DNA from: Oryzias latipes
Lineage: Eukaryota; Chordata; Actinopteri; Beloniformes; Adrianichthyidae
Direction of reading: 5' to 3'
NCBI RefSeq assembly: GCF_002234675.1
Contig: NC_019859.2
Location: 2,820,740 to 2,884,739 of the forward strand
Length of the DNA stretch: 64,000 nucleotides
Part shown: in pieces, positions 16,271-39,900 of the stretch
How positions within the stretch are numbered: the stretch's first letter is position 1
Layout of the letters: every line of letters starts with the position of its first letter
Notes under the pieces: model-generated
What the model saw: only the letters and a program-made list of their open reading frames with translations
Told to the model about the DNA's origin: nothing
Databases searched by the model: none
Position numbers and translations under genes: made by a program

Positions 16271-16324
16271 TTTATTTTTCAGGTCCATTCAGCTCCCAGG
16301 AGATCTTAGTTTTGGTTCTGCCGC

Positions 16325-17035
16325 TCAGATGCAGATGAAGTTTAGTTTCTCCTGACAGTCTCGGTTCTCCCACTCTCCCTGTTTGGTCAAAGCTCCACAG
16401 CGCTTCTGAACCGGACTCTGCTGGTCCGGATCTCCTGTTTGGGTCCAGGCCTGGAACTCCAGAGGATCCCCGTTCACCCACAGCCACGTGTCCCCCAGGA
16501 AACGCAGACCCACCCACACCCGCTGGGTGATAGTGGGGTCTTGGATCTCTCTCTGGGCCAGACGGTTCTCTGTCTCAGAGAGCAGGCTGGTGAGGTCGTC
16601 GTGGTTCCCTCTGCAGTGCTCCAGAGCCTCCTCCCAAGTCTTCTCCTCCTGGACCACGATCAGGTTCAGGCAAAAGAAGTTGCTGGGCGTCCCGCCATTC
16701 TTTGATATCCACTTTTCTCTGGTCCAGTAAACGCGATCCCAGATGCCCGGGAAGGTTTTCCAGGTTTGGTCTCTGTAGACCACCCCCCCTACGCAGATCC
16801 ATTTCCTTTGACCATCATCCCAGTAAATACCGATCCATCCTGACTGCCCATCTTTTACAGATTTTCTGAACACTTGTTCTTCCAGATCGTTGGTGAGGGG
16901 TGAAAGGTCTGTATATTTGCTCTGGCAGTATTGTTGAGCTTCATAAAAACGTCGATCCTCAGAGACAAAGACGTGTTTGGCAGCCAAAGAGCCCCCAGCA
17001 AAAATGGCAAGCCCCACGAAGAAGATCCTCTCCAT
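16325..17035 (-). CDS. Secreted dual C-type lectin-like domain protein, copy 1
   Basis: Intronless, 236 aa. The ATG at 17035 was chosen because it starts the signal peptide MERIFFVGLAIFAGGSLA shared with the other copies; 29 upstream in-frame codons are not conserved. Residues about 20-119 form a degenerate C-type lectin-like domain starting KHVF, with EAQQYC and SGWIGIYWD blocks, an added C in WICVGG and no clear inner cysteine pair. Residues about 120-236 form a complete CTLD with cysteines in EHC, KRC, RDC and FIC, plus WVGLRF. The usual calcium and sugar motifs (EPN/QPD and WND) read GDPDQ and WENRDC, so classical calcium-dependent sugar binding is doubtful. There is no membrane segment, so it should be secreted. 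It is closest in style to the fish 'macrophage mannose receptor-like' or CLEC20A-like predictions; the function is unknown. This copy lacks the octamer at the usual place; a TATA-like TTTATATGTAAAGG lies about 57-70 bp upstream. Confidence 0.88.
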   Translation of the reverse strand: MERIFFVGLAIFAGGSLAAKHVFVSEDRRFYEAQQYCQSKYTDLSPLTNDLEEQVFRKSVKDGQSGWIGIYWDDGQRKWICVGGVVYRDQTWKTFPGIWDRVYWTREKWISKNGGTPSNFFCLNLIVVQEEKTWEEALEHCRGNHDDLTSLLSETENRLAQREIQDPTITQRVWVGLRFLGDTWLWVNGDPLEFQAWTQTGDPDQQSPVQKRCGALTKQGEWENRDCQEKLNFICI

Positions 17036-17104
17036 CCTGAGACCGGAGCTTTGTGGTCCTCCTCTCACACTGAGGAGGTGACGGGAGAAACCTTTACATA
17101 TAAA

Positions 17105-18885
17105 CCAGACGTCCCATCCCACCCCCTAAAATTAAAATGAGCCTTCCTCTTTAGCTTCGGAGAAAAACAAATAAATGACGGGAAAGGCTTTTCTCTTTTT
17201 CTTTTTAGGAAAAACAAACAATAATAAAAGTGGAAAATCCTTAAATGGAGGTGTTTAATAAAAATAGAGAACAGTAAATCAAACCTTTTGGTTTTCTGCT
17301 CTTTTTCCCTTAAGCTCACAAACATTTTTGCTGTTTTACTACTTACATCATAAAACTTTGTAGAAACTCAAAAAGATCTACTGCATTAATGAATTTGCAT
17401 CACAAATATATTTGCATAACAAAAACAATCATAATATTCCAAGCAATTACCATCGTTTTCTAAAATGACAAACGTGACCTAATGTTTTCAATATTTTGAT
17501 GGTTTTATAAAATTTTACTAAAGTAAAACAGAATTTTTTAGAGCATTAAAAAAGTAGCCATGAGGGTCCGAAGCCCCAAGTCCTTCAGATGTGTGCAATG
17601 TGTGGTCCTCAATCGAGTTGGTGTGCATGGATGGTCAATAAGATCTCACAGATGGAATAACATGCATCAGTGTATGTTTTATGGTATTTATAAGGAGTTT
17701 GTGGTTAATATTGTTTGGACTGTTCAGAAAAGTCTTCTTGTCATTTTTTGATGTGGTAATTACAGTACTTTGGACCTGATGTTTGTTTGTCTCGACTGAA
17801 AAAAATCCCCCTGTTGTGTTGGAAAAGTAAATGTTGGAAGTCTGTTAAGGAAAACTTCATAAAGCCTTTTTTTACATTTAATTTTTGATCTTTTACTCGC
17901 TTCAATGTCGCAAGTTTAACCTGTAAAATTGATGCTTTTAACAGCAATTATTAGGTTAGAAAAAAAGTAGACTACTTTAATTAATTGTAATCAATTAATC
18001 AGAAAAAAATGAATCGCATGACAGCACTAGTAAAAACTGTAATGATAACTGTGTTTTTGTCGCAAGAAAAAATGAATGGGTGTATCAATGTGTGTCTTGG
18101 TTTCATTTAGTGGAACCGACTACAATAGTCTGAGTGAAATGTTTTCAGTTTTAGGAAATTATGTGAAAAGTTATGGAAAACCATGTTTGAAAATAGCAGG
18201 AACCCTGAATGTACTCTATTATCACAAATTTATTTGCATTGCAAATATTTAATAATATTCCAACATGTTATTCTCAACAATACAAACATATATCAGTAGG
18301 AGTTGAACCTTACAAATGTTCATGCAATAATCTGATGAATTCATTAAAGATTACAATAATACAACAGTTTTTTTTAAATAAAAGTAATTGGAAGAGATTT
18401 TTGGTAAATACTATAAAAGTTTGCACCAAAAGAAATTTGGAATAATTTGGTTTTGTTGATACATAAACAGTTAATGTGACAACAAAAACATAACATTAAA
18501 TCAAATTTTGTTTTGAATTATCTTTTAGATATCATAAATGTATTTGAATTTTTTTAACATAACGTTAAAAGAACAGTGATGGGGTTTTATGCCACTTTTT
18601 GGGAATAAAAATGCAACATTTATTTCCAAGTAAACTAAATCATATTTTTAGGGTTATATTGATAAAGTATGAATTTGTGCACAAGTTTTCATGTTGAATT
18701 ATTTTGCAGCTGTGGGAGTCTGCATAATATTGGAAATGTTTCCACGTAGCCATTATTGTTAAGGTAAACTCTTTATGTTTGTTTGTGAAATTTTCTAAAT
18801 CACAGACATTAAGGCATTTACAGGCCTTATGGTTCCTAGAGCAACTTTAACACACATTCCTGTTTTCCGCACAAGCAGTTCGTCT
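17105..18885. other. Non-coding upstream region of lectin copy 1
   Basis: AT-rich. Two octamer motifs (ATTTGCAT on +, i.e. ATGCAAAT on -) lie at 17393-17400 and 17410-17417, about 360 bp upstream of the gene's ATG. No other gene evidence. Confidence 0.5.
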
Positions 18886-18993
18886 CCGGAGTACGGAGCC
18901 CCTGACCTGACATGGGTAAAAAAGAAAATTAATTTGTGGGAACGAATTAATTTTCTTTTTTTACCCATGTCAGGTCGGGGTTCCGTACTCTGG
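18886..18993. mobile_element. 108-bp foldback MITE
   Basis: Arms 18886-18934 and 18945-18993 are near-perfect reverse complements (two substitutions and two one-base indels over 49 bp) around a 10-base loop. The end sequence GTACGGAGCCCCTGACCTGA is related to the sequences flanking the LINE at 36726 and 39925, so a family exists. Confidence 0.8.
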
Positions 18994-19689
18994 AGAACTA
19001 ATATGAAGTCTTATTTTTTCCTTTGTATTTTCTTTATGTCTGGTTGTGTTTTGTGTTTCTTGCCCTTCATTTCACTCATTTTCCTACTCTGACACACCTG
19101 ATTCAAATGCAGAGGGGATGAATGCGATCGCCTAATGTAGCTCAGCTTCTTTGCAGACGTGATTCCCTCATTTGACTGAGATTATTTGTGAGGGCTTAAC
19201 ACACAAAAGAGCCAGGAGTCTTTGAAACCACGACAAGTTGATTTATTGTCTCCTAGTTTTGTGTTTTATATTTGAAATGACTGACGGAAACTATTGAACG
19301 TTTTCAAAAATATTCACATATTTTAGATATACCTGTATATTTCCACAGAGGTGATGTATTCTAGTTTGACTAGAAATAAGAGAAATTCACTAATGATGTC
19401 CAGTCATCCTCACTGAAGTAACGGACTATTTACTTTAATGTTGCACGGACATTTGTGTGGTTTTTTTCCTTTCCTTTTCACTGTGTGTTTTGCAGCCTGG
19501 TGTCTTCAGCTCGAGGCTGACCTCTGCTGGACATCTGCACACAGACACAAGGCCCAAAGATGAACCAGCTGAGGGGAGTTGAGGTACTCACCTGCTTATT
19601 GTAGATAACCATCTGCCATGAAAGGGAGGAAAGGGGGAGTTTTTTGCATTAATGTTTTTTAACAGGTATTCTCGGGGGTGGGGGGTGGG

Positions 19690-20045
19690 GGGGGTTGCAG
19701 TGTTCCCAGCCTCCCTTTGTTCCTGTCTGAAGCTCCCAGATGTGGGAGTTGAGGAACTCCCTGATGTGGAATTCTCGTTCCCAGCAAACAATCCCAGTCC
19801 ATCTGGGTGTGTCGAGTCTTTCCGACCTCCTTCCCGGCCATCTGATCCAACCCACCGCCAGGTAGGGATCGGTTGACAGCCTCCCCCTCTCTATACCCAA
19901 GTGTCAAAGACACATGGCCAAAGGTCGCCTGAAACGCCGATAAAGTCGACCATCGACCTCCTGCCAAGAGCATCCTGGTGCCACATGTAGAGATGGACAT
20001 AGTTGTCCTGGGGTTCAGATCATGTTGTTGTTCAGACACACGAGG
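19690..20045 (-). pseudogene. Decayed LINE (endonuclease-domain fragment)
   Basis: Minus-strand blocks WHQDALGRRSMVDFIGVSGD and a later CWERE..IREFLNSHIWEL resemble the apurinic-endonuclease and linker part of a common teleost LINE whose consensus I remember as WHQDTLGRRSMIDFV. Frameshifts and stops are present. Only this segment is left. Confidence 0.6.
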
Positions 20046-20049
20046 TATA

Positions 20050-22300
20050 CATTTGTATGAACCCCTTTTGTATTTTAGGGTAAACTTCTTTTATATTAAT
20101 TATATTTGTTTAAAGATGGGGGTAAGGGTACAAAAGAAAATGGGAAATAAGTTGTTGAAGAAGTCCGAGTGATTTAAAAGTAGGAAGGGTGGAATTACAA
20201 AAAGAGGCAACAAGTTGCTGGAGGTTTATCATTATCAGGTTCAAATGTAGATGTTAGTCAAAGGGGCGGGGCCTATCCACACACTGAAATATTACATACA
20301 TACTGCTGGTTCTAAAACCCTTCACGCACATACATGTCGACATGCATTCAGTACATGCAGAGCAGCTCACACGCACATACTGCATGTGTGGGGCGCGTTC
20401 TCTCCTCGCAAAGAGCCTCAACTATTTTTGTCCCACCTGGCTTTCCATAGTACCCCGGTGCTTTGTTTACCGGTGGTCACGTGGCATGTTTTGAATGGCG
20501 CTCCGGAGACGCGTTTTTGAATACGTCACAGTGGCAACACGCAAATGTTTGGCGTTCAGTGGTACGGAACACCGGACCAAGCAAAAACAGTCACAAAACC
20601 TGAAAACACAACATGAACACAACAAATCGTAGCTTAAAAAAAAACTAAGCAAGTGGACACCGTTCCATAAGAAATGATGTCCGGATGTCTCTATAAAAAA
20701 CAAATTTCAAGGTCATATTTACAAGGAGTTTATAAACCGGAAATGTAGACTCATTTTCTTCCTATTGTTGATCAAAAATCTAGAAAAAAACAGTGAGAAA
20801 CTTAAAAAAAGGATGACTGTGTTAAAGTTTAGCCAATTCTGCAAAATTAAATTTCATTGCAGTCTAAGACAAAAGACATACCTTGGATTTGGTTCGGTCC
20901 AGTCAGTAGCATTTATAGAAAACACTGGAATGAATAAAAATGGTGTGTAAAGAAAAATGGTAGAGGTGGAGGGGATCAGTTCAACTGCGGGTCTCTCCCA
21001 AATTAGGTGGATGGATGGAATGTAGTATACTTTATAAAACATTTTAAAAATCTGTCATACTGTGACATTCCATATCCCACATTTTAATACAGGTGTACTG
21101 TATAAAATCCCGCATTTTTTGTTAATTTTTGTGTGAAATGAAATCAGTACTTTTTGTATTGAAAGAAAAAGAAATGTGTTTATAATTAACCATTACACGA
21201 TGTTAAAAATGAGTGGATCAAATTAGAGACAGTGGGTAAATAAGGTACTTGTTTTCTGAACACCCGAGTATATGTTTGTGTCTTAAACTAACAATGCTGT
21301 GAGCAAAAACTCACCAAAATTACCCAATATATCAAAATTGCAACTATCTATAACTAATAAAAGTTATTTTGTATAATCATTTTTGTATCATCAAAGGGTT
21401 TAGAAAAATTTACATTTCTGTACATTTGTTGATGTTGTGGACTTTTCGGGGGTAATAGGTGATTCATGAAGGCACTGGTAGGTTTTTCTTATCACCATGC
21501 AAAAAAACAAACAAAAAAAAACATGAAAGTAACTTTATATTTTCTGCTATAAAAACTGATATCTGCCATCAATGTCTTCTGGTCTGCAGACGTTTGGTTC
21601 CTCTAACTCTTTAGGTTTCACGTGAACCGGTGAAAAAATTCTTCTTTTCTGCAGGGATCTGTTGGTGTGTCAGTTTGTGATGCAAAAGAACAAAAGTTGG
21701 CAATAAAATAATGAAACTCCGGATACATCTGGTACATCTTTATTTTTTTAAACCCGAATGAGAACTGTCATTTCTTCATTAAAAATATGTTTTAAAGAAG
21801 ACTTCTTCACAACAGGTTTTTGTTTTTTTAAATAATTTATTTTGATCATTTTATTGTAATCAGTAGCATAAACTGCAATGGATGCACCAGTGAAATGAGG
21901 CTGGATGGCATCAATGATACATTTCATTACATCTAAAGCTTCCTAACTGTTTACCACTGTTTTTGTGCTTTTACTTTTTGGAAACTATAAAGAATTTGTG
22001 TAAAACATTTTGTTAACAAATATTTGAAACCCGATCGAGTTTTTCTTTTCATTCCATTCATGCAGAACAACAGAGATTCATTGCAAACAGAAATGTTCCC
22101 TTTCCTAAACAGTTTTTGTTGAATGTTTTTTATCTGATTTAATAGCCTGACTTACATCAGGCTGGACAGTAGAAAGTTCACATGTGAAGAATTTTTGGGT
22201 AATTTTGATTCAATGATCTTTTTTATAATGGCTAATGTAAATATAAGTGAATGCTAAAAGCAAACAATTGAAGATAATATAAAACTACAGAAAAAGACAT
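20050..22300. other. Gene-free stretch between lectin copies 1 and 2
   Basis: AT-rich, with no coding frame longer than chance. About 21300-21400 holds a segment whose reverse complement resembles 24374-24480 (a TTTGATG block, then GGTGAGTTTTTGC), probably an old dispersed repeat. Confidence 0.45.
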
Positions 22301-22362
22301 TTTAAAACGTTATAATTGGATATGAAAGCTAATTCTACTGTTCCATCCTGCAGGTCTGCCGC

Positions 22363-23082
22363 TCAGATGCAGATGAAGTTTAGTTTCTCCTGACAGTCTC
22401 GGTTCTCCCACTCTCCCTGTTTGGTCAAAGCTCCACAGCGCTTCTGAACCGGGCACTGCTGGTCCGGATCTCCTGTTTGGGTCCAGGCCTGGAACTCCAG
22501 AGGATCCCCGTTGGCCCACAGCCACGTGTCCCCCAGGAAACGCAGACCCACCCACACCCGCTGGGTGATGGTGGGGTCTTGGATCTCTCTCTGGGCCAGA
22601 AGGTTCCCGGTCTCAGAGAGCAGGCTGGTGAGGTCGCCGTGGTTCCCTCTGCAGTGCTCCAGAGCCTCCTCCCAGGTCTTCTCCTCCTGGACCATGATCA
22701 GGTTCAGGCAGAAAAATCGATATGCATAGGTGCTATCAGAAACCCAACTTGACCATTTGGCCTGAACCACAGCATCCGCAGAATTCGGCTGTTGCTCCAG
22801 AATTTCCTGGTAGACAGAAACAGCATCTGTTCCTCCGGACCACTTCCATTTCTGATCGGCGGTGTCCCAGTGCAGACCGATCCATCCTATGTGGTTGTCA
22901 TCCACAGACCAGAAGAACTCCTGTTTCTCCAGGTCATTGGTGAGGGGCAGAAGGTCAGTGTAATGGCTCCTGCAGTAATCTTGAGCGTACTGCCAGGACA
23001 TAAAGTCACTGATGAAGACGTGTCTTGCAGCCAAGCAGAAAGGGGTGAAAGAAACGAGCGTGATGAAGATGATCCTCTCCAT
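22363..23082 (-). CDS. Secreted dual C-type lectin-like domain protein, copy 2
   Basis: Intronless, 239 aa, from the ATG at 23082 that begins the signal peptide MERIIFITLVSFTPFCLA. The first CTLD (about 20-122) has KHVF replaced by RHVF, AQDYC, GWIGLHWD and KWKWSGG, and a long insert before FFCLNL. The second CTLD (last 117 residues) differs from copy 1 at six positions, one of them S to C, which adds an unpaired cysteine before KRC. As in the other copies, the calcium motifs are altered (GDPDQQ and WENRDC). An exact octamer (23166-23173) sits 84 bp upstream of the ATG, and a conserved block lies about 1.1 kb upstream. Likely a secreted immune-type lectin-like protein; ligand unknown. Confidence 0.88.
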   Translation of the reverse strand: MERIIFITLVSFTPFCLAARHVFISDFMSWQYAQDYCRSHYTDLLPLTNDLEKQEFFWSVDDNHIGWIGLHWDTADQKWKWSGGTDAVSVYQEILEQQPNSADAVVQAKWSSWVSDSTYAYRFFCLNLIMVQEEKTWEEALEHCRGNHGDLTSLLSETGNLLAQREIQDPTITQRVWVGLRFLGDTWLWANGDPLEFQAWTQTGDPDQQCPVQKRCGALTKQGEWENRDCQEKLNFICI

Positions 23083-23165
23083 CCTGCTGCTTCAGTCGTT
23101 GTACAGAACAAGCCAGACTGTTGTTTCTCTGTTTTGTCTTTCAGTGAGGTGGCTGCAGCAGCTAT

Positions 23166-23173
23166 ATTTGCAT
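23166..23173 (-). promoter_or_regulatory. Octamer ATGCAAAT upstream of lectin copy 2
   Basis: Exact 8-base match on the minus strand, 84 bp from the ATG. It overlaps an AAATATAG that may serve as a TATA-like element. Octamers are bound by POU (Oct) factors. Equivalent sites stand 76 and 82 bp upstream of copies 3 and 4. Confidence 0.5.
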
Positions 23174-24184
23174 CAAGACTTATCTAAACATACTCAAATG
23201 TTCACTTGAAAAACATGGATGAACTCAGGTTTCCACCGACGTGTCACCAAATATGTTAATGAAAACAAACTTTCTAATCTCTGTGGTTTGTTGTGTTATA
23301 CATAATTTAGACAGATAAAAAAAGAGTCTTTGCTTACTTGAAACAACAAAACGTTGAAAGCAAAAAAAAAATTTTTTAAAAGCTAATATTTTGTATTTTC
23401 CTTTGCAAGTTTTGTGTGCATAAATATTACTCCATACATCTGAGTTAAAGCTCCTATTTCTCATCACATTTACTCACGCTCTTGTTCACATCCAGCTGGA
23501 GGAACGTGGGGCTCGTTGCCATGGCTACAGAGATGCAGTCTGATGCTAAAATTCTATTTCCTGTTTATAACTTTAATTTCTTTTTATAAAAACATAATTA
23601 GAAGTTGTTGTTGTTGTTTTTTTATTGGCAGGTTGTGTGGACCCACTTTGTCTCAACCAACTTTCATTTTAGTACCCAAAGTAGGCGGGGGGAAAGGCTG
23701 GTTAGTTAGTTTTTTTATTAGTAAAGCATTCTGTAAATTGTTCAGTTTTTTTTTATTTTATGAATTGTACAACTTTAATAAAACTTTGCCTTTTCTCACA
23801 ATTTTATGACTTTGTTCTCAAAAAATGTTGACGTTTTTCTCATAATTGTATAACTTTATTCTCGTGAAATGTTACTTTTTCTTACATTATTGACTCACTT
23901 TTTTTTTTACATTATTCAAGTAAAAGTTGGACTTTTTCTAATATTTGTATGACGTTAATCCTGAAATTTGTTTAATTTTCTCCCTAACTTTATGACTTCT
24001 TTCTCCTATGTTTAGTTATTGTTCTTCTTCCATGGTGGCCCTGTTACTCTGTCACCTTTTGCTTCATAGATTCTCTGTTTGAGAAATATTTATCAAAAGG
24101 GAGCTGGTCTTCACTTGTTAAAAAACTGATTCATCAAATTCAATGATTAATGTTCTTTAATGGAAGCAGCTTTATCTCCTGCAC

Positions 24185-24270
24185 TGTTATTTGCAAGTGA
24201 CAGCGATGCATTTGAATGTGTTCACGTGTTTGCATGTGTGGTGAGGTCGGTAAGCCTGCAGCTGAGTCAC
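24185..24270. promoter_or_regulatory. Conserved non-coding block upstream of lectin copy 2
   Basis: Contains TTGCAAGTGACAGCGATGCA, then TTTGAATGTG, then TTTGCATGTG. Related blocks in the same orientation lie at 26830-26920 and 33464-33530, upstream of copies 3 and 4. It may be an enhancer or simply a relic of the duplication unit. Confidence 0.45.
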
Positions 24271-24279
24271 GGCGTCCAA

Positions 24280-25157
24280 CGTTTTCCAAGATGACAGGCG
24301 TCTCATCCTTAACCCAGTATCTCATCAAAGAACTAACAGAAAATCCAAATTTATTGGAATTAAGATGTATTTTAACCCTTTGATGTAATCCACATACAAA
24401 TCATTTTTTGGAGATATCAATTATGATCTGTTGGGTGATTTGGTGAGTTTTTGCCCTCATTTTGCCCACACATTTATATCATGGTGTAACTGTCTTATAA
24501 AAAGGTCAATTATCAACTAATTGTGCATTCTTTCAATGCAGCAAGTTGTAATTTTAAAAAATATATGGCAATGAGTTATTCTGACCATAACATTTTTTTA
24601 AAAATTGAACTTTTCTCATCATGTGCTTTTGAGGTTTTATGGAAAAAATAAAACCTTCTACTGCAGACAAAAATGCTAGATACGAATGGTTGTATGGGAT
24701 AAAAAACAAAAACAAAGAAAACTTGCATTTCTGATGTTTCTAAATTTTTCTTTAATGTTTTTTAAAGACCAAGAATTTTCCCTGTATGTGATTTTGCTGG
24801 TTTTATTGGATGTATTTTTTTTGCTGTGTTTTGTGTTATGATTAACGTTAAAAATGTAAATAATAAATAAAACCTCAATTAGAACAAAAGAACATTTGAA
24901 AAATAATGGACATATTGCACTTTGCCTTGTTTTTTTTTATTCTGAGGACTGACTGAAGTAGTTCACAGAGAAATCACACGAACCGACTAAATTATGACAA
25001 AATAAGGAGTTTAAACCGCTTTGCAAAATGCAGAAGGAGTTTTGATTTGATTTGTGGTTTAATGTTATAAAAAAACTCATTAAAGACAACAAAACTAATC
25101 AAAGAAAATGTATTTTTACTGCTGAGCAACAGAAGATCTTAGTTCTGGTTCTGCCGC
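24280..25157. other. Gene-free stretch, 3' side of lectin copy 3
   Basis: AT-rich, no coding frame. The part at 24374-24480 resembles the reverse complement of 21300-21400. Confidence 0.4.
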
Positions 25158-25871
25158 TCAGATGCAGATGAAGTTTAGTTTCTCCTGACAGTCTCGGTTC
25201 TCCCACTCTCCCTGTTTGGTCAAAGCTCCACAGCGCTTCTGAACCGGACTCTGCTGGTCCGGATCTCCTGTTTGGGTCCAGGCCTGGAACTTCAGAGGAT
25301 CCCCGTTCACCCACATCCACGTGTCCCCCAGGAAACGCAGACCCACCCACACCCGCTGGGTGATGGTGGGGTCTTTGATCTGATTCTGGGCCAGAAGGTT
25401 CTCGGTCTCAGAGAGCAGGCTGGTGAGGTCGTCGTGGTTCTCTCTGCAGTGCTCCAGAGCCTCCTCCCAGGTCTTCTCCTCCTGGACCACGATCAGGTTC
25501 AGGCAGAAGAAACCGTTGGCAGAGGTAAGGCTTTTAGAAGCCCATCTGTTCTCCTTCCACAACACACCCTCCCAGATATTTAGCCAGTCGTTGAGCCAGC
25601 CTTGGTCTTCGTCAGCGGCTCCTCCGGACCACTTCCATTTCAGCTCCGTGACGTCCCAATACAGACCGACCCATCCTGTCTGAATTCCACTCAGAGACTC
25701 CTTGAACACCCGTCCCTCCACAGCGTTGGAGATGGGTGAGAGGTCGGTGTGATGGGTCCTGCAGAAAACCTGAGCCTTATCCCAGGACATCTTCTCGGAG
25801 ATGAAGACGTGTTTGGCAGCTAAAGTGCCGGTAGAGATAAAAACCAGGACGGTGAAGAGGATCCTGTCCAT
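25158..25871 (-). CDS. Secreted dual C-type lectin-like domain protein, copy 3
   Basis: Intronless, 237 aa. The ATG at 25871 starts the signal peptide MDRILFTVLVFISTGTLA; a longer in-frame start at 25964 would precede it with 31 non-conserved residues and would place the octamer inside the coding region, so I reject it. First CTLD: KHVFISEKMSW, AQVFC, GWVGLYWD, KWKWSGG, IWEGVLW. The last 117 residues are the conserved CTLD, differing from copy 1 at seven sites (G/E, R/L, R/N, E/Q, Q/K, L/M, E/K). Same altered calcium motifs and the same four cysteines in CTLD2. Octamers at 25947-25954 and 26021-26028 lie 76 and 150 bp upstream of the ATG. No membrane segment. Confidence 0.88.
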   Translation of the reverse strand: MDRILFTVLVFISTGTLAAKHVFISEKMSWDKAQVFCRTHHTDLSPISNAVEGRVFKESLSGIQTGWVGLYWDVTELKWKWSGGAADEDQGWLNDWLNIWEGVLWKENRWASKSLTSANGFFCLNLIVVQEEKTWEEALEHCRENHDDLTSLLSETENLLAQNQIKDPTITQRVWVGLRFLGDTWMWVNGDPLKFQAWTQTGDPDQQSPVQKRCGALTKQGEWENRDCQEKLNFICI

Positions 25872-25946
25872 CCTGCTGAAACCGCCGTTCAACGGAACAA
25901 ACCAGACTGGTGCCAGACTCTTCACCAAAATGTTCAGACAGCAGAC

Positions 25947-25954
25947 ATTTGCAT
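25947..25954 (-). promoter_or_regulatory. Octamer ATGCAAAT upstream of lectin copy 3
   Basis: Exact match on the minus strand, 76 bp from the ATG. A second exact copy stands at 26021-26028. Confidence 0.5.
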
Positions 25955-26384
25955 CCAGTATCAATTTATTTTGCTTAAGCTGAGAAAACAGATGAAGTCA
26001 GTGTCTGTTGGGATGTTCTGATTTGCATACGGCAAAAGTAAGTTTGTTAAAAAAAAGGCTTTAGAAAAATAAAACAGTCTTTTAGAGAAAATATGAAATT
26101 TACTTTTGTACAGTACTTTTTGTAATAAACATGTACTTTTATATTTGAATCATTTGGTAGAGTCTGAAGTGTACAAAAACAATTAATTTTTTACTAAAGA
26201 ATTGGTTACAAACTAATATCTTTACATATTAAAAGATAAGTGAGGATCTAAAAGCTGTTGCGATGCGTCTTATCTCTTAAAACGGATATTTGTGAAAGGA
26301 TTTAATCTTTTATTTCAATTTAAAGTTTTACATGTTTAAGTATTTTATCTGTTGACTACACACCTGACTACACCTGGTTGTGGA

Positions 26385-26785
26385 CCCTCCCTCTGGCTCG
26401 TCTCGCGCCCCCAGCCGTCCGCCAACTCCCCATCTGCTGGACCATTTAGACATGTAGTTGTAGAGTTCGATGAGCTAATTCTTCTCTAAGAGTTCTGGGA
26501 CATCGCCTGTCCGTCCTGGGGGAGGATCCCTCCTTCATGTGGACACCCCTGATTTCATCTTTTTTTTCCCCGGAATCCGTTTTTCCTTACCGAGACGGAG
26601 GGTCTAAGGGCGGGAATTCCCAATTTAGCTTAGTCTAGTTTAGTTAAACAGTTATAGACTGTATTCTGTGACTTTATGTTCTTTATGAAATCATGTTCTT
26701 ATACAATTACCGGTATGAAGCCCTTTGAGACGACTATTGTGGTATTATTGGGCAATATAAATAAAATTGAACTGAATTAATACCT
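26385..26785 (+). repeat. LINE-type 3'-end repeat
   Basis: Contains GTCCTGGGGGAGGATCCCTC, TTTTTTTTCCCCGGAATCCG, AAGCCCTTTGAGACG and ATATAAATAAAATTGAACTG. This is the usual 3' tail arrangement of an abundant teleost non-LTR element. No coding part. Confidence 0.5.
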
Positions 26786-26829
26786 CAAAAGATCAGAAAG
26801 TGTCTGCATCAAAGACTTGATCTCATCCG

Positions 26830-26920
26830 CTTGTTTGCAAGTGACAGAGATGGATTTGAATGTGAGCCTTTGTCCGTCTGTATTTGCATGTGGCAGGGAG
26901 GTTAGCCACCTTGCAGCTAC
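26830..26920. promoter_or_regulatory. Conserved non-coding block upstream of lectin copy 3
   Basis: Contains TTGCAAGTGACAGAGATGGA, then TTTGAATGTGAG, then ATTTGCATGTGG (an octamer at 26882-26889) and TTGCAGCTA. Homologous to 24185-24270. About 1 kb upstream of the copy 3 ATG. Confidence 0.45.
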
Positions 26921-27105
26921 GAGGATGAGGAGGCAGGTTTTTGAAGAAGACTTCGAGATCCTTCACACTAACAACATTTTAGACGATTGATGTCTTGGAG
27001 CCAAAGACAAACTTCCATGGTGGAGATGTTCCTTTTTTTCTGAGTAGAACATCAGGTTTAGGGTTAGTGGTTTTATTCAGGACAAAAATTATAATTTTAC
27101 GTTAA

Positions 27106-28685
27106 CCCTTGTGCTATCCTAGGCATTTTTACGTTGGGAGTTGGGTCATCTAGACCCACTAGACCGGGGGTCGGCAACCCGCGGCTCAGGAGCCGCATGC
27201 GGCTCTTTAGCACTGCCCTAGTGGCTCCCTGCAGCATTTTCAAAAATCTTCTTAAATCTGTCTTAAGATGGTTTCTGTAGGAGTAAACAAGACACAAACA
27301 TTATTATTGTTTTCCAATGATGTAAGAATGCGTAGAAAAAAACTTTGTAACGCCAAGCAGGTACATCATTTGCAGAGGACAAATCGGGAGCCAAGCTGTC
27401 TGGAAGTTGAGCTGTCAACCAATTGGCTGCGCCGGAGAAATCTTTGTGTCCCGTACAAGGCATGTCTCGTTGCAGTCTCAGGGAGAAGCAGGCAGGAAGC
27501 TTAGCTGAGAGCATATAGCCTCCTTTCTGGCATTATAGGCCCCTTTATTTAACACATGCACCACATTGAACATTGCACAGGAGTCATCAACCTCTCCCCC
27601 TCCCACACTCACGGTAGAACAAAAAGAAACAAACATAACAGGAAGAATAAACTAAGGTGGAACAACAAAACTACCATATGAAAAGAAACGTGGGAAAACA
27701 GTAACGCTCATGCTGAGCCCTAATTAGATCGAGAGACCGCGTCCCACAATCCCCTACTGCTAACAGACCTAAAAATGCACATGACTGTCACTACAATATT
27801 ACTTTTTTTTAAACTTTATTGTACAAAACGAAAGTACAATACAAAACACAAATTTACAAATTAAACTTCAGATATGCCAGGGGAGCATTCCTTTGTTCAA
27901 ATCCTCAAAATAAAAATAACATCAAAAATCGGATTTCTTTATTACATTTCTTTAATTTTATCAAAGCAATGAAACATGATTCATTGATATTGTAGTGACC
28001 CGGGGGTTAGCCCCGCCTTCAGTCCCTAAGGCTCATGGGAAGTGGGGAGTTTTGGGGTAAAACTTTGAGTGAGAGTGTTGGGAATTGAAGTGAGGTCCAT
28101 GGTGTTTTGGCTTTTTATGTGTGCTTGAATAAGCGGACTTGATCCTGCAACGGAATTTCAAATAGCTTGTTATTTTAATTACATCTTGAAACTGTCCAGG
28201 GTTGTACGGGCAGCTCTCTAGTATTGCCGCTACTTTGATATTGTAATAAAGTTAGACTGGCACAACAGAGCAGTGACGTGACGCAGCGTTCTCCGCAGAA
28301 CGCACTGCAGGGCAAATAAACATTTAATTGTTAATAATGCTCATTTTGTATTTGTAACATCTTAGTCATGTTGATAGTAGGCTAATATAGCTAATATAGA
28401 AACACATTGCATGTGTTGCCTTCATTATAAGGCTTAAATAGGGCTTTTAATATTTTGCGGCTCCGGACATATTGGTTTTTTGTCTTTTTCGTCCAATTTG
28501 GCTCTTTCAACATTTTGGGTTGCCGACCCTGCACTAGACAGTGCTCTGAACCTTTTTTCTTCAATTATTTGTGATCTTCACTGGTGTCCATAGATTACAT
28601 GAAATCCTCTCCACCTTTATCCGCCTTTGTCATGGTAGGAAGAACACGTCAATGGTCATCTTGACCCCATAGGATAGCACACGGG
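27106..28685. mobile_element. piggyBac-like MITE, interrupted by a hAT element
   Basis: TTAA target-site duplications at 27102-27105 and 28686-28689 flank inverted ends CCCTTGTGCTATCCTA and, at the right, TAGGATAGCACACGGG. The TTAA duplication is typical of piggyBac elements. Without the inserted hAT (and its 8-bp duplication) the element would be about 200 bp. A partial relative lies near 13225-13290. Confidence 0.75.
27165..28531. mobile_element. hAT-type DNA transposon (1367 bp), nested
   Basis: Ends GGGGGTCGGCAACCCGCGGC at the left and GGGTTGCCGACCCTG at the right are inverted repeats. The 8-bp target-site duplication CACTAGAC is exact at 27157-27164 and 28532-28539. Inserted inside the piggyBac-like MITE. 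No intact transposase frame seen; the interior has a hAT-like 'CGGCTC..' subterminal motif. Confidence 0.82.
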
Positions 28686-28689
28686 TTAA

Positions 28690-30660
28690 TGCAAATGTAA
28701 AACTAAAGATAAATGTGGATTACTTATTTAGACACGTGCGGTCAGAAGAGGCGGATAACGTCTCACCTGTTAAGATGTAAACTAACAGTAAATTACCTGG
28801 TCATCTAATATTTGCTATAAATGAAATTCATGTGTAGATTTCTAAATATTCCAGTCATTGATGTCCTTAAAATGTCTGTACTTTGTGTATTTCCTGTGAG
28901 GTGAAGAAGCACTGAGCTCTACCTCACTGCAGATTGCACAAACCCATACAAACGGAGTTGAACGTGTTTTATTCACTCAGAAAGTAATACTTTATTACAG
29001 TTTCTAGACATTATAAACATTTTTATTACATGTCATTGTTTTCCATATATTTCACGTTTTGTATTGAAACTGACATACAGCTGCACTAAAAAAAATCACG
29101 TGTTTGGCAGGCAGTACCTCTGCCTTAATGTAGAGGGCGCTCGAGAGCTCGTGTTCTTCAGTGGTTGCTAATAAAGTTTTACGAGGAGTGTATTATTTTG
29201 TTTTGCTCTGAAAAAAAATCAGTAAAAATGTTTCAAAGTTGGACTTTCAATCAAAACCTGTTGATCGATGCTGTTTAATCAACACATCTTCATTCTGACT
29301 GAGACACTAAAAGAATGAGGATGAACTTAATTAATAAGTAAAGGTTGGACCAGTGTGTGAACACTGGCTGTGTGTGAGTCCATCTGTAGCATCCACCTTG
29401 GTGTTTTTTGGCAGTCATACTGAAGGGTACATTTTACATTCTTCCTTGGTCTCATATGAACCCGAAATGTTTATGAAAAGAAGCTAATATGAGATATAAA
29501 TTTACAGTTACACAACTTCTCATTTTAAAAATTCAGACTTTTTTTTATGATCGTTCGCTCATTGAAGGTCTTTAGGTAAGTCAGATTGTGTGTTTGTGTG
29601 CGTGTGTGTGTGATGATGATGATGCACACAGTTTAAATGACAAAGATGTAACAGACAGTTTGTGGAACTTTCCATACACGGAAATTTCCGATCCATCCTT
29701 GATGTGAAAACCTTTGTGTTTTAGGAAACATCTTCATAAATGACAAACGTTCTGACTTTTATTGATCGATGCTTCTTGTCTTCTTCTTTTTCTGAGTGGA
29801 TGTTTTCATGATAAATACTGAACTGTTTTGTATGGAAAAGAATCTTTTCTGCGTTGAAGCAGAAACAAAAGGACAAAATTGTTTATCCTCTTTCCCTCCA
29901 AAGGATAAAAATGTGTGAAAAGAAATCAAGTCTGAATCTGTTTTTTTTTTTTTGTTTGATTGTTAGTTTGGTGAATCAGGCTGTTATTTTGAATCATTTT
30001 AAAACTATAATGGGCTTTTTATTCTGTTAAGGAAGCAAACATTAAAATTGTAATGTTTTTACATGACTATTCTGAATTTTTTAAAAGTTTTCATGGTTTT
30101 ATTCTTGTATTACCTTATATTTTATTTCATACTATTGTTGTACCTAAAAGTGCCGTACAAATAAAGTTGAAAGGACCAGAAATTAAACTCCTGTTCTTTA
30201 TTTTCAATTGTCATTAAAAAAATCAATTTAATTCAAATATTGGACTGTTTCCTACATGAATTGAAAATATTTAACATTTTCATTCCTATTAATGAGCAAA
30301 TTATTGTTGCTGCAAACAATCAAACAATGAAATGAACAAACAATGAACAAACAACTTAAAATTAAAACAAACTTTCATTAACTACTACAAACAGTTTTAA
30401 GGAATTATCTTCAAGTACAGGTACAGCAAAATTCAGGTTCAGCTTCTGCTCTATTTTTATAGTTTAAGACTAAATTTAAATTCATATTTATTTCTTGAAC
30501 ATTTAGTTTCTAAATCACAGATCAGAAAATCTTGACCCAAAATGTTTTTGATTGATGAGATAAAATCTACAACATCACAAGCAGGACAAACTTCAGATTT
30601 TCTGACTGGTTTTGTTTGGAATATAAAGTTCTGCAAACTTCCGCTCAGATCTTTGGTTCT
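28690..30660. other. Gene-free stretch, 3' side of lectin copy 4
   Basis: AT-rich, with a (TG)n run near 29593-29612. No coding frame or clear transposon end seen. Confidence 0.4.
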
Positions 30661-30665
30661 GCCGC

Positions 30666-31349
30666 TCAGATGCAGATGAAGTTTAGTTTCTCCTGACAGT
30701 CTCGGTTCTCCCACTCTCCCTGTTTGGTCAAAGCTCCACAGCGCTTCCGAACTGGACTCTGCTGGTCCGGATCTCCTGTTTGGTTCCAGGCCTGGAACTC
30801 CAGAGGATCCCCGTTCACCCACTTCCACGTGTCCCCCAGGAAACGCAGACCCACCCACACCCGCTGGGTGATGGTGGAGTTTTGGATCTCTCTCTGGGCC
30901 AGACGGTTCTCTGTCTCAGAGAGCAGACTCGTGAGGTCGCCGTGGTTCTCTCTGCAGTGCTCCAGAGCCTCCTCCCAGGTCTTCTCCTCCTGGACCACGA
31001 TCAGGTTCAGGCAGAAGAAACCTTGCAGTTTCTGTTTTTGTTCCACAAGCAACCTATTTCTTTTCCAAAGAAGAGAAACGTTAGAATTTGTTTGCAGATC
31101 CGACGTATTTGACCAGCTGCACCCCGAAGTGCTCCAGTACACTCCGACCCATCCCGACTGGTCACCACCCACAGACCGCCTGAACACCGACTTCTCCACA
31201 TTATTGGTGAGGGGTGAAAGGTCGGTGTGGTTGTTCCTGCAGAACTCCTGAGCGTCTGTCCAGGAAAGTCTGTTCGAGGTGAAAACGTGCTTTGCAGCCA
31301 AACTGCGTGCAGCTGCGACTGCGAGCACCATGAAGGCGAGCTTCTCCAT
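30666..31349 (-). CDS. Secreted dual C-type lectin-like domain protein, copy 4
   Basis: Intronless, 227 aa, the shortest copy. The ATG at 31349 starts the signal peptide MEKLAFMVLAVAAARSLA. The first CTLD is about ten residues shorter than in the others (AKHVFTSNRLSW, AQEFC, SGWVGVYW, then CSWSNTSDL) and has lost the KWKWSGG block. The conserved 117-residue CTLD2 differs from copy 1 at seven sites. Five N-glycosylation sequons are visible (NHT, NTS, NVS, NST, NQT); NST and NQT, both in CTLD2, come from copy-specific changes. An exact octamer (31431-31438) is 82 bp upstream of the ATG, with a TATA-like CCAATAAAGT between them. Confidence 0.87.
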   Translation of the reverse strand: MEKLAFMVLAVAAARSLAAKHVFTSNRLSWTDAQEFCRNNHTDLSPLTNNVEKSVFRRSVGGDQSGWVGVYWSTSGCSWSNTSDLQTNSNVSLLWKRNRLLVEQKQKLQGFFCLNLIVVQEEKTWEEALEHCRENHGDLTSLLSETENRLAQREIQNSTITQRVWVGLRFLGDTWKWVNGDPLEFQAWNQTGDPDQQSPVRKRCGALTKQGEWENRDCQEKLNFICI

Positions 31350-34740: not shown

Positions 34741-36862
34741 ATGGTAAGAATGTGTTTCAGCTTAATCAGTGTTGACTGAATGTGTTTTGGCCGCTTTTGT
34801 TCCTGAATGTTGCGGCTTGTTGTGCGGGCAGATCCTCTCGCGCGTGAAGCCTGCGGTTGGAGGAGAGTCGGCGCTGAGCATCAGCGAGAAAAAGAGGAAA
34901 AACAAAAACAAGGTTCCCAGTTTGGAGGAGTACCTGCAGCAAAGAGATTACCTGGGAGCTCTGACACTGCTGGAGGTCTGGCGTTTCTTCTCATTTCTTT
35001 CTGTTTTGGTTTTATGAAAAGTGCACCAATTATTAACTTGGTTTAGTGAAAATAATAGTACAGGTTCATTTGTAGATATTTAATGTAATGCTCACTAATA
35101 ATGTGTCTGTGTTAGAAATACAAAAACGCTGAGAAGATTGAAATTTGATTAATAATATGACACATAAACGATAATTAAAAAAAACCCAACAAATATGGCA
35201 TTGAGAGCAGCAATAGTGTTCTACAGCTAAATTCCTGAACTTAAAAGTTTATTATTCACTTTGATTTTTTCATCACAATAGTTTTCATTTACATCCATTC
35301 ATTGTGAGTTTTTACCTAAGGAAAAAAAAACCTCACAAACGAGCTGTTTTTGTCTGAAAAAAGATGAGAAAAGCAGCGATCTACATGAATATAAACCAGG
35401 GGTGGACAAACGTTTTCACTCGTAGGGATTTTAAAATTTCACAAGGAGGCCTGAGGACCAGAAGAGAAAGCAATAACGTAGAATCTGGATTAAAGCAAGC
35501 TTTAATTTTGATTGAAAATTATATAAATATCTAACTTATGTTGATGTCCTTCAAGGATACTTAGAGAAATGTTGCGTTCATGTGGTGTTGGAATGATGGG
35601 GAAAATGACCGTCTGACTTGGGAAACACTAATGAACATCAGAAAAGCAACAAATCTTCCAATTTCTGCACCTACGCAAAGGTTAATATATTAGTGAAATG
35701 ACACTAGAATAACAGGGAAAATAAAACATAAGGATTATCAATTAAATTAATGCAAATTTAATGGGCAATATATGGCATCCAGGCCATAGTTTGCCCACCC
35801 CTGCCCTGGTCTAAACTGCAATGCATGCGAAGCTTTTTGCAACCACAAGGCGGTGCAATATAGTGCTTCTGTGTGATTGTCCCAAATCCCATGAAACGCA
35901 GAGGGCTCTGTCTGGATGGGCCTCTGACATAAAACAGGATGATTCTCTCGTAAACGGAGCAGCCTAAAGGATTTGTTTAATTTTTTAAGCTCCAGAGGCG
36001 TCAAAACGGGCAGACTGCTGGTTCCAAGTGCAGCAGGTTTATTAGCACAGCTAAAAGTCAATAGCAAGCATGAGAGCATCAGAGAGGAAGTACTGGGTAG
36101 GCAAAGGGAGTCAGAGACAAAACAGGGTCAGGAAATTAGAAGATCTACAGTTCGGTAACGCAGGCAAAGTGGCACAAACAATACTTTGCACTGAGTGAGG
36201 CTCAGTACTGTGCTTAGGTATGCTGTGAGTGATTGCAAATAAGACTGTGTGACATCCAGAAACTGTGAGCTGGGGTTGCTGGGAGATGTAGTGCTTTAGT
36301 ACGGTTCCTGCCGGTGACCAGAGGGGGAGACAGAGCTCTGACTTCTGACGAAAGGGTGGAATGTGAAAACTGTAAACTGGATTTCATTTTCGGGAAACTA
36401 CATTTCTCCAAATTGTAATCAAGTAAAAGCTTTTTCAAAACAGTTGCACAGCAACAGACAGTTGTAGTTTCTGTGGCCTGAAATTACCTTTTGGTACCCA
36501 GCGTCACGGTTCTGAGGTGTTTCTGTGTCTTATTTAAGTTTCACAAAAGTATCGGAGAAAAAGAAGAGCATGCAGACCTCTGGATCGGTTACTGCGCCTT
36601 TCACTTGGGGGATTACAAGAGAGCCATGGAGGTAACAATTTCGCAATGGAAACTTCATTTAAAACCGAAAAAAGCCTCTAATGTTTCATATAGTAGACAT
36701 TTTTCATTGTCATTGGTTGTTTTGTACGGAGCCCCTTACCTGCCACAGGTTAAGAAAAAAAAAAACTTATTTGTTCCCACGAAATAATAATTCACGCGAT
36801 AAGTCATTCATAAACACGGACGTGAGCAATACTTGGATCCGTTGAATTATTATTTTGTGGAC

Positions 36863-36901
<39 letters not shown>

Positions 36902-39900
36902 TTGAAGCGATACAATGCCACGGGAGAGCCAGAACAACAGGTCAGAGAGTAGGTTATGCCACACTCCCACCCTGAGATTGGGTACACAGCCCCAACAACC
37001 ACAATTACGCTGAGCGAGGCAGCAATTGACCTGAAAGACAAGATCATGTCTACAATGAACACTAGGCAACCCCGACACGAACTACAACGGTTAAGTGACG
37101 TACCTGAAAGTCTACTGGAAACTGTGAATGAAGCATTGAGGGCAATTCCTACCACAAACATTACAGAAACCAATGAACTGGTTTACACTTCAGCAGCAGT
37201 GATCCTTGAGATGCTTGGCTACAAGAGCAACCATGGAAGAAAACAGTACCCACCATGGAAGCAACGGTTAGAGGCCAAAATCAAGGCAACTCGGAAAGAT
37301 GTGAGTAAGCTGACAGAGGCTCAAAGAGGTACAATGAGAAAGCAAGTACCTAAGAGATACAGCCAGATGCCCATACCTGAAGCACTGGAAACTGCCAAAC
37401 AAAGGCTCCTAGCCTTGAGCAGCCGCCTAAAGAGGTACACAAGAGACAATGAAGCCAGACGAATAAACAGTCTCTTCGCAACTCAACCTGCAAAAGTGTA
37501 CGCTCAGTGGCAGGGTCAAAACAGCCGAGCAGACCCACCAAGGCTAGAAACTGAACAGTACTGGAAAAGTATATGGGAGAAAGAGACAGCACATAACAGC
37601 AATTCCCAGTGGCTGGTCTCTCTGAGAAAAGAACATAGCAACCTCCCTGAACAGAATCCAGTAACCATCACAGTGGCAGACATCCAAGAAAGAGTCTCAG
37701 GTATGAAGAACTGGACAGCACCGGGCCCTGACATGATACATGCCTACTGGCTAAAGAAGCTTACCGCACTCCACGAGCGCCTGGCAGCACAAATGAACCA
37801 GCTGCTAAGAGATGGGACTCACCCCGAATGGCTAACGGAAGGGCGAACGATCCTGATCCAGAAGGATCCCTCAAAGGGTGCAGTCCCATCCAACTACCGG
37901 CCAATAACCTGTCTGTCCACAACATGGAAGCTCATGTCAGGCATCATTGCAACAAAGATAAATAGGCACATGGATCAATTCATGAGTAACATACAGAAGG
38001 GCATTGGTAGAGACTCCAGAGGAGCCAAACACCAACTCCTGGTCGACAGAACAGTCGCTCAAGACTGCAAGTCACGACACACCAACCTGTGCACAGCCTG
38101 GATTGATTACAAGAAGGCCTATGACTCAATGCCACACACATGGATCACTGAATGCTTGGAGCTGTACAACATCAACATGATTCTAAGAGCCTTCATAGGA
38201 AACTCAATGAAGCTGTGGAAAACCACCCTTGAAGCCAATGGGAAGCCACTTACACAAGTGTCCATCAAATGTGGGATATACCAAGGTGATGCTCTGTCCC
38301 CACTGCTGTTCTGCATAGGTCTGAACCCCCTCAGCCAAATAATCACCAAGACTGGCTATGGATACCGACTCAGAAATGGGGCCAACATCAGTCACCTCCT
38401 CTACATGGATGACATCAAGCTATATGCTAAGAGCGAGCGTGACATTGACTCCCTAATCCACACCACCAGGATCTACAGTACTGACATTGGGATGTCATTC
38501 GGGCTCGAGAAATGCAGCCGGATGGTGACAAAGAGAGGCAAGGTAGTCCACACAGGAGGGGTCTCACTCCCAGAAGGAACAATAGCAGACATCGAGGACA
38601 GTTACAAGTACCTTGGAATCCCACAGGCAAATGGCAACCTGGAGCAGGCAACAAGGAAATCTGCAACAGCTAAATACCTCCAACGAGTAAGGCAAGTCCT
38701 GAGAAGCCAGCTCAATGGCAAAAATAAGACCCGGGCAATAAACAGCTACGCACTGCCCGTTATCAGATACCCTGCAGGAATAATAAGATGGCCAAAGGAA
38801 GAGATACAGACCACGGATGTGAAAACATGAAAGCTCCTCACCATGCATGGAGGGTTCCATCCCAAATCCAGCACCCTGAGACTGTATGCTAGCCGCAAGG
38901 AAGGAGGCCGAGGACTAGTGAGCGTAGAAGCCACTATCCAGGATGAAACATCCAAGATCCATGAATACATCAAGCTCAAGGCCCCAACTGACAGTGTGCT
39001 CAGTGAATGTCTCAGGCAATGGAGAACAGAGGATACAGTGCTGGAGGACAGATCCTCATGGGAGGACAAACCCCTGCATGGGATGTACCACCGGACCATA
39101 ACTGAAGTGGCTGATATCAAGAAGTCCTACCAATGGCTAGAAAGGGCTGGCCTACAGGACAGCACCGAAGCGCTCATCCTGGCAGCCCAGGAACAAGCCC
39201 TGAGCACCAGAGCCATAGAGGCTCAGATCTACCACACCAGACAAGACCCAAGGTGTAGGCTGTGCAAAGAAGCGCCTGAAACAATCCAGCACATAACTGC
39301 AGGGTGTAAGATGCTGGCAGGGAAAGCATACATGGAGCGCCACAATCAAGTGGCTGGAATAATATACAGGAACATGTGTGCAGAATATGGACTGGAAACC
39401 CCAAGGTCAAAATGGGAAACACCTCCGAAGGTTGTAGAGAATGAGAGGGCAAAGATCCTGTGGGACTTCCAGATCCAGACTGATAGGATGGTAATGGCGA
39501 ACCAACCAGACATTGTAGTGGTGGATAAAGAACAGAGGAAAGCCGTTGTGGTGGATGTGGCAGTGCCAAGCGATGGGAACATCAGGAAGAAGGAACATGA
39601 GAAACTGGAGAAATACCAGGGACTCAGAGAAGAACTGGAGAAAGCCTGGAAAGTGAAGGTGACAGTGGTGCCTGTGGTAATTGGAGCACTTGGGGCAGTA
39701 ACCCCCAAGCTGGAGGAGTGGCTACAACAGATACCTAGAAAGACCTCAGACCTCTCAGTCCAGAAAAGCGCAGTGCTAGGAACAGCTAAGATACTGCGCA
39801 GGACCCTCAAGCTCCCAGGCCTCTGGTAGAGGACCCGAGCTTGGAGGAGAAACCACCCGCGGAGGGTGAGAGGGGCGTTTTTTTTTTTTTTTATATTTTT

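Follow-up and report, generated by a model that had tools for sequence, protein, structure and literature searches.

Gene conversion limited to particular domains has already been described in fish, for protocadherins and NLRs. According to the accessible parts of the fugu report (PMC1852091), the clustered protocadherins undergo regional gene conversion among tandem paralogues and their N-terminal domains are proposed to carry specificity. In the zebrafish NLR-B30.2 family, based on the available portions of the source, conversion acts differently on the NACHT and B30.2 domains, and a high ratio of nonsynonymous to synonymous divergence (dN/dS) is found in the presumed recognition domain B30.2 (PMC4852459). 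Concerning lectins, the available text of PMC514892 characterises fish group F1 by two or three C-type lectin-like domains (CTLDs), solubility and at least one CTLD with residues of the calcium- or carbohydrate-binding type. Here we describe four tandem genes in a stretch of 64,000 nt of Oryzias latipes contig NC_019859.2; this stretch is referred to as the window, and positions are window coordinates unless another contig is named. Each gene encodes a divergent first CTLD (CTLD1, the head) and a nearly uniform second one (CTLD2, the tail). The best overall explanation, which we hold to be probable, is an old tandem two-CTLD family whose tail is overwritten by gene conversion while the rest diverges.

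The two domains differ in their synonymous divergence (Nei–Gojobori, six gene pairs). Over the 117 codons of CTLD2, from FFCLNL to the end, synonymous divergence (dS) is 0.041–0.099 and nonsynonymous divergence (dN) 0.022–0.045; in CTLD1 the values are 0.62–2.0 and 0.47–0.69, respectively. Within the same genes, dS thus differs about tenfold from one domain to the other. The initial annotation had reported that the 117-residue CTLD2 differs at 6–7 positions between the first copy and the others. The exact counts for gene 1 against genes 2, 3 and 4 are 6, 7 and 7, and each of the remaining pairs has 11 differing residues. Agreement in CTLD1 had been put at roughly half, with variable length; the length does vary (indels lie mainly in the loop half), and the amino-acid identity is slightly under half (38–47%, mean 43%, six pairs). 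The change at FFCLNL is as abrupt as had been noted: 40–60 of 109 third positions differ upstream of it (signal segment and CTLD1) versus 4–7 of 117 downstream (Fisher p 5e-11 to 1e-17), and 4–9 of 17–23 four-fold sites differ upstream versus 0–4 of 42–45 in CTLD2.

The near-identical tract covers 362–368 bp in self-BLAST and starts at the FFC codons. Its identity continues past the stop codon, as had been claimed, but only briefly: the four copies agree for 8 nt, and three of them for 12 nt. At an E-value of 1e-6 and a minimum hit length of 80 bp, self-BLAST detects similarity between the units no farther than about 40 bp ahead of the ATG and 28 bp after the stop. The G+C content at third codon positions (GC3) is 0.75–0.79 in CTLD2 versus 0.53–0.68 in CTLD1. 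Five sites inside CTLD2 at which the copies divide two against two back each of the three splits that are possible (2, 2 and 1 sites), which suggests more than one conversion event and is what a succession of short exchanges would produce. These mutually incompatible splits, together with synonymous divergence that is not equally low in both domains, uphold the earlier proposal of repeated conversion of the 3' half; that gene conversion homogenises the C-terminal domain is, in our judgement, highly probable. CTLD1 is not wholly free of exchange, since genes 2 and 3 have a run of 19 common polymorphic sites at the start of the CTLD1 loop (KWKWSGG; 0 of 5000 shuffles); judged from the sequence, this is a short exchange in the variable half.

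Table 1. Coding sequences (CDS), homogenised tracts and divergent first domains of the four window genes (ORF, open reading frame; protein lengths are counted from the ATG).
Feature	Position	Strand	Description	Basis
Gene 1 CDS	16325..17035	-	236 aa, signal-like segment + CTLD1 + CTLD2	ORF + Lectin_C
Gene 2 CDS	22363..23082	-	239 aa	ORF + Lectin_C
Gene 3 CDS	25158..25871	-	237 aa	ORF + Lectin_C
Gene 4 CDS	30666..31349	-	227 aa	ORF + Lectin_C
Gene 1 homogenised tract	16311..16678	-	FFCLNL to stop + ~14 nt	96% identity with gene 4, 368 bp
Gene 2 homogenised tract	22355..22716	-		95-96% identity with genes 4 and 1, 362 bp
Gene 3 homogenised tract	25150..25512	-		96-97% identity with other three
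Gene 4 homogenised tract	30652..31019	-		96% identity with gene 1, 368 bp
Gene 1 divergent CTLD1	16667..16981	-		Domain search, dS, identity
Gene 2 divergent CTLD1	22705..23028	-		Domain search, dS, identity
Gene 3 divergent CTLD1	25500..25817	-		Domain search, dS, identity
Gene 4 divergent CTLD1	31008..31295	-	Shortest loop	Domain search, dS, identity

All four ORFs are uninterrupted and encode a hydrophobic, signal-peptide-like N-terminus followed by two CTLDs; the frames end one residue past the last cysteine. The description of the genes as intronless and on the minus strand therefore holds for the coding part, while the 5' untranslated region may contain an intron. The Pfam domain Lectin_C matches two stretches in each of the four proteins with 74–80 bits (cut-off 22.6). 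The highest 19-residue hydropathy past residue 20 is 0.74–1.14, so there is no second comparably hydrophobic segment and the products are most likely secreted. CTLD2 contains four cysteines (five in gene 2) and CTLD1 two or three. The calcium site of canonical sugar-binding C-type lectins consists of EPN or QPD plus WND. By motif test only, EPN, QPD and WND are found in none of the four window proteins, and CTLD2 shows GDPDQQ ... WEN where the canonical motifs are expected; ordinary calcium-dependent sugar binding is thus not indicated for the window array. Open antisense frames of 119–141 codons span CTLD2 in all four copies (16346–16702, 22384–22749, 25179–25580 and 30687–31109, plus strand) and are probably a by-product of the common GC-rich tract.

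The genome (734 Mb in 25 contigs, named here C1, C5, C16, C18, C24 etc.) was searched at the DNA level with the gene 3 tract; the search, which may miss places, found four, all of them the window copies. A fifth single-exon two-CTLD gene is present on C5 (L005/L030). Its identity with gene 2 is 37% over the matched part, and its tail has 40% identity with those of the window.

The same layout is found at a larger scale on C18 and C24. The genes there have up to three CTLDs on separate exons, the last of which (CTLD3) is nearly the same in all of them, in contrast to the divergent CTLD1 and CTLD2 that precede it. A genome search with the last CTLD gave 58 matches, including further interrupted or partial copies; full-length, stop-free copies, 93–99% identical, number 11 on C18 and 4 on C24. 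The analysis covers 17 ten-kb stretches at C18 22.62–23.06 Mb (L013–L029) and five short stretches at C24 9.54–9.75 Mb (L033–L037), which were picked around search matches and cover the arrays in part; the arrays at C16 29.7 Mb and C18 25.9–26.1 Mb were left out. Array domains shorter than 105 aa were dropped (partial or interrupted pieces of L013, L017, L018, L019, L020, L021, L028 and L037), and 15 CTLD1, 16 CTLD2 and 16 CTLD3 domains entered the dS counts. One CTLD2 of L024 is unclassified in these counts, L026 was retained in them and omitted from the pairwise homoplasy index (PHI) test of CTLD3, and one further array comparison was restricted to genes with a long tail domain.

Within C18, the median dS is 0.94 for CTLD1, 1.34 for CTLD2 and 0.068 for CTLD3 (66 CTLD3 pairs). 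Between C18 and C24 the medians are 1.01, 1.23 and 0.049 (48 CTLD3 pairs), and within C24 the CTLD3 median is 0.033 (6 pairs); across the comparisons of the two arrays those of CTLD1 and CTLD2 range from 0.94 to 1.45. In 49 of the 66 C18 pairs the near-identity (93.5–97.7%) is confined to positions -20 to +380 of the 339-nt CTLD3. The window genes have no intron at the CTLD junction, yet their tract ends at the same domain boundary. A stop follows within 1–2 codons of the tail in 14 of the 16 C18/C24 copies read (later in L021, out of register in L026), and median GC3 is 0.664 in CTLD3 versus 0.518 and 0.536 in the upstream CTLDs. The constant/variable layout proposed for the window thus finds strong support in arrays outside it.

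Some individual copies show peculiarities. At 7112–7432 of L026 (C18) the tail ends in a different reading, and the gene is possibly damaged; L026 also has an NPEDQIW variant in common with L016, though their heads are quite different. The CTLD1 domains of L025 and L029 are identical, and some C18/C24 copies may be assembly duplicates. Partial tail copies with equal match scores lie on separate contigs (C21:2034399-2034736 and C24:9477780-9478117; C22:22130685 and C18:22864353), through either recent movement or assembly duplication.

In a tree of 66 domains of at least 95 aa (117 columns), in which bootstrap values had not fully settled and long branches were flagged, all 24 C-terminal CTLDs, from C1, C5, C16, C18 and C24, form one clade (support 99/96). 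This tail class is present both in two-domain single-exon genes (C1, C5) and in three-domain multi-exon genes (C16, C18, C24). The window tails (98/96) and the window heads (97/98) form clades of their own. The tails have a mean identity of 0.92 in the window array and of 0.93 in C18/C24, compared with 0.31 between the array sets; for the heads the mean is 0.43–0.53 within and 0.21–0.24 between them. The stems of the tail clades measure 0.71 (window) and 0.48 (C18/C24), above tips of 0–0.07. Tails that are uniform within an array and changed between arrays indicate concerted evolution, array by array. Tree conflict was assessed for the ten genes of C18/C24 that have CTLD1, CTLD2 and CTLD3. The CTLD3 DNA tree separates L016 and L026 from the eight other genes (99/98), a pair that CTLD1+2 reject (approximately unbiased (AU) test, p 7e-69), and L014 with L016 is supported by CTLD1+2 (100/100) and rejected by CTLD3 (AU p 0.034).

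Mechanistically, ectopic gene conversion among the copies would repeatedly overwrite the C-terminal CTLD and would leave the flanks, the signal segment and the greater part of the first CTLD to diverge. One common job may keep the tail uniform (it could self-associate, dock to a receptor or effector that all copies use, or hold the protein at a surface), and a uniform tail would keep different heads, which may bind different ligands, interchangeable. Whether the heads act as ligand-binding modules we regard as an evenly balanced question; a tail that serves as a common docking or assembly module is a tentative proposal, with a little less in its favour. The step from a constant sequence to a common partner is taken by analogy with the fugu protocadherins and the zebrafish NLR-B30.2 proteins. 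A wider generalisation, which we think rather unlikely, is a germline antibody-like layout in fish, with many diversifying CTLD heads on an interchangeable tail that conversion maintains in each array and that belongs to an ancient class. If it were true, proteins from one array could assemble with each other in mixed complexes or rely on a single receptor. The layout of the two array sets itself predicts many ligands for the heads and, for the tail, a single partner or way of assembling.

A common tail job is not needed if conversion simply lasts wherever similarity remains, with CTLD2 under ordinary purifying selection and a weakly constrained CTLD1 that has escaped. We see this neutral account as possible, though we lean against it. 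The tract edges coincide with the end of similarity, and window CTLD1 dN/dS is 0.32–0.85 and never above 1; as dS is near saturation, these heads are too diverged for selection to be judged, and the claim of a diversifying 5' half is not sustained for the window itself. What speaks against the neutral account is that the same C-terminal class is homogenised in two array sets of different gene structure, and that among the young C18/C24 CTLD1 pairs (dS above 0 and below 0.35), which are non-independent, dN exceeds dS in 17 of 24, with a bootstrap share of at least 0.95 in 3 of 24. Looking at single pairs, L027–L028 have 17 nonsynonymous to 1 synonymous difference and L014–L016 have 24.7 to 2.3; L022–L033, with a ratio of 0.58, go against the trend. 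In the other domains of these arrays dN exceeds dS in 8 of 34 CTLD2 pairs and in 7 of 119 CTLD3 pairs (median 0.48). This pattern suggests diversification of recognition in the C18/C24 heads. EPN is found in 10 of 15 of their CTLD1 domains and W[VA]D in 14 of 15 (QPD hits sit in another part of the domain), which makes sugar binding plausible there.

Several results weigh against conversion of the tails. A GENECONV-like permutation test, suggested by the initial annotation, gave an uncorrected p of 0.03 for two pairs with runs in or at CTLD2 and left the CTLD2 tract itself unmarked, because all four copies are homogenised and only 28 of the 245 polymorphic sites lie inside it. The PHI signal in C18/C24 CTLD3 is weak (p 0.043 with a short and 0.59 with a long neighbourhood); it is stronger in CTLD1 (0.001 and 0 of 2000), so recombination affects the heads as well, and CTLD2 gives 0.014 and 0.67. 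Against two further groupings from CTLD1+2, CTLD3 gives no significant rejection (AU p 0.115 and 0.348). Similarity extends past the exon in 17 of the 66 C18 pairs, partly because the genes are young relatives. Young whole-gene relatives are also common to C18 and C24 (L026–L036, CTLD1 dS 0.056), and exchange between the chromosomes is therefore not proven. A smaller C-terminal rise of GC3 is present in single genes as well (C5: 0.593 versus 0.486; C16: 0.552 versus 0.42–0.44), which makes GC3 only partly a sign of conversion and supporting evidence only. Finally, the AlphaFold2 model from the four-protein alignment has a predicted local distance difference test score of 41, with no usable fold.

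Constraint on the CTLD2 DNA or RNA itself (RNA structure, splicing or codon use), acting without conversion, would account for the high GC3 and low dS of the window tails. We judge it very unlikely, as the tails are only about 31% identical in amino acids between the array sets, so that there is no general constraint on the protein or on the DNA, and the C18/C24 trees are incongruent. An assembly artefact is less credible still: exact repeats of some C18/C24 pieces are present on other contigs (C21/C24 and C22/C18), and these arrays may thus contain assembly errors, but each window copy has its own CTLD1 and flanks, which makes an artefact in the window unlikely. A recent tandem duplication alone, with rapid change of CTLD1 afterwards, fits the tandem order and the common strand and is otherwise refuted by the dS contrast, since synonymous divergence is low in CTLD2 only and the flanks are without similarity. 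Overall, what the initial annotation observed is confirmed and its interpretation is partly supported, with tail conversion in an old family as the preferred explanation.

Upstream of the window genes, the octamer ATGCAAAT (in gene orientation) is found within 400 bp of all four start codons, at 23166, 25947, 26021, 31431, 17393 and 17410 (minus strand). In genes 2–4 it stands at -91, -83 and -89, within poorly alignable DNA, and the window contains 12 occurrences versus 5.4 expected; a common promoter element of the Oct type is possible. Upstream of 15 C18/C24 CTLD1 exons there is no enrichment (4 forward and 4 reverse in 28,526 bp) in a count that is exon-based, with start sites not located and three stretches of about 300 bp or less. 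As a promoter mark of the whole family the octamer shows no sign upstream of these heads.

Elsewhere in the window, positions 36953–39826 (plus strand) contain an RVT_1 reverse transcriptase frame and, after one stop, a second frame whose weak match to zf-RVT falls short of the cut-off; this looks like a non-LTR retroelement broken by at least one stop. Frames at 8838–9170, 36482–36784 and 63523–63915 (plus strand) match the mitochondrial carrier family and, with weak scores, families of the TPR and ubinuclein types; they resemble SLC25A38, TTC26 and UBN2. Human TTC26 and UBN2 lie near the CTLD genes KLRG2 and CLEC2L; the window could accordingly be an old lectin neighbourhood. Back-translated patterns gave no match among the IMG/VR viral contigs, and there is no Rfam match within the window at gathering scores.

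Concerning family placement, group F1 appears to be the nearest family. The window genes agree with its architecture (two CTLDs, no transmembrane segment) and not, by motif, with its calcium- or carbohydrate-binding residues; we therefore describe the array as F1-like and do not file it as an F1 member. The C18/C24 genes agree with both features by motif, start regions left out. Homogenised C-terminal CTLDs are unmentioned in the available parts of the F1 report (PMC514892), and no description of them in fish was found in titles and abstract openings of the open-access subset, some queries being word-limited. Among PDB sequences, those closest to gene 3 and its CTLD2 are the PLA2 receptor, the yolk sac IgY receptor, LY75 and MRC1, a likeness to the mannose receptor/PLA2 receptor family. 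The members of that family are large membrane receptors with many CTLDs.

NLRs are intracellular proteins. The zebrafish NLR-B30.2 genes resemble the medaka arrays in that two domains of the same proteins of a fish immune family are converted differently; according to the available portions of PMC4852459, they differ in that the domain uniform within groups is NACHT and in their number, nearly 400 genes. A likeness in pattern, as far as the accessible parts of PMC1852091 go, is seen in the fugu protocadherins: divergent 5' and near-identical 3' parts with a discrete boundary at a domain, GC3 raised in the homogenised part (the signature used there), and an identity of only about 38% between the homogenised parts of different subclusters. 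In medaka the proteins are lectin-like and probably secreted, and two array sets in one genome have the same C-terminal domain class. In practical terms, reads from the last domain in these clusters are not assignable to single genes. The protocadherins are neuronal membrane adhesion molecules, whereas the medaka products would be secreted lectin-like proteins, each encoded by a complete gene, a contrast drawn partly from general knowledge.

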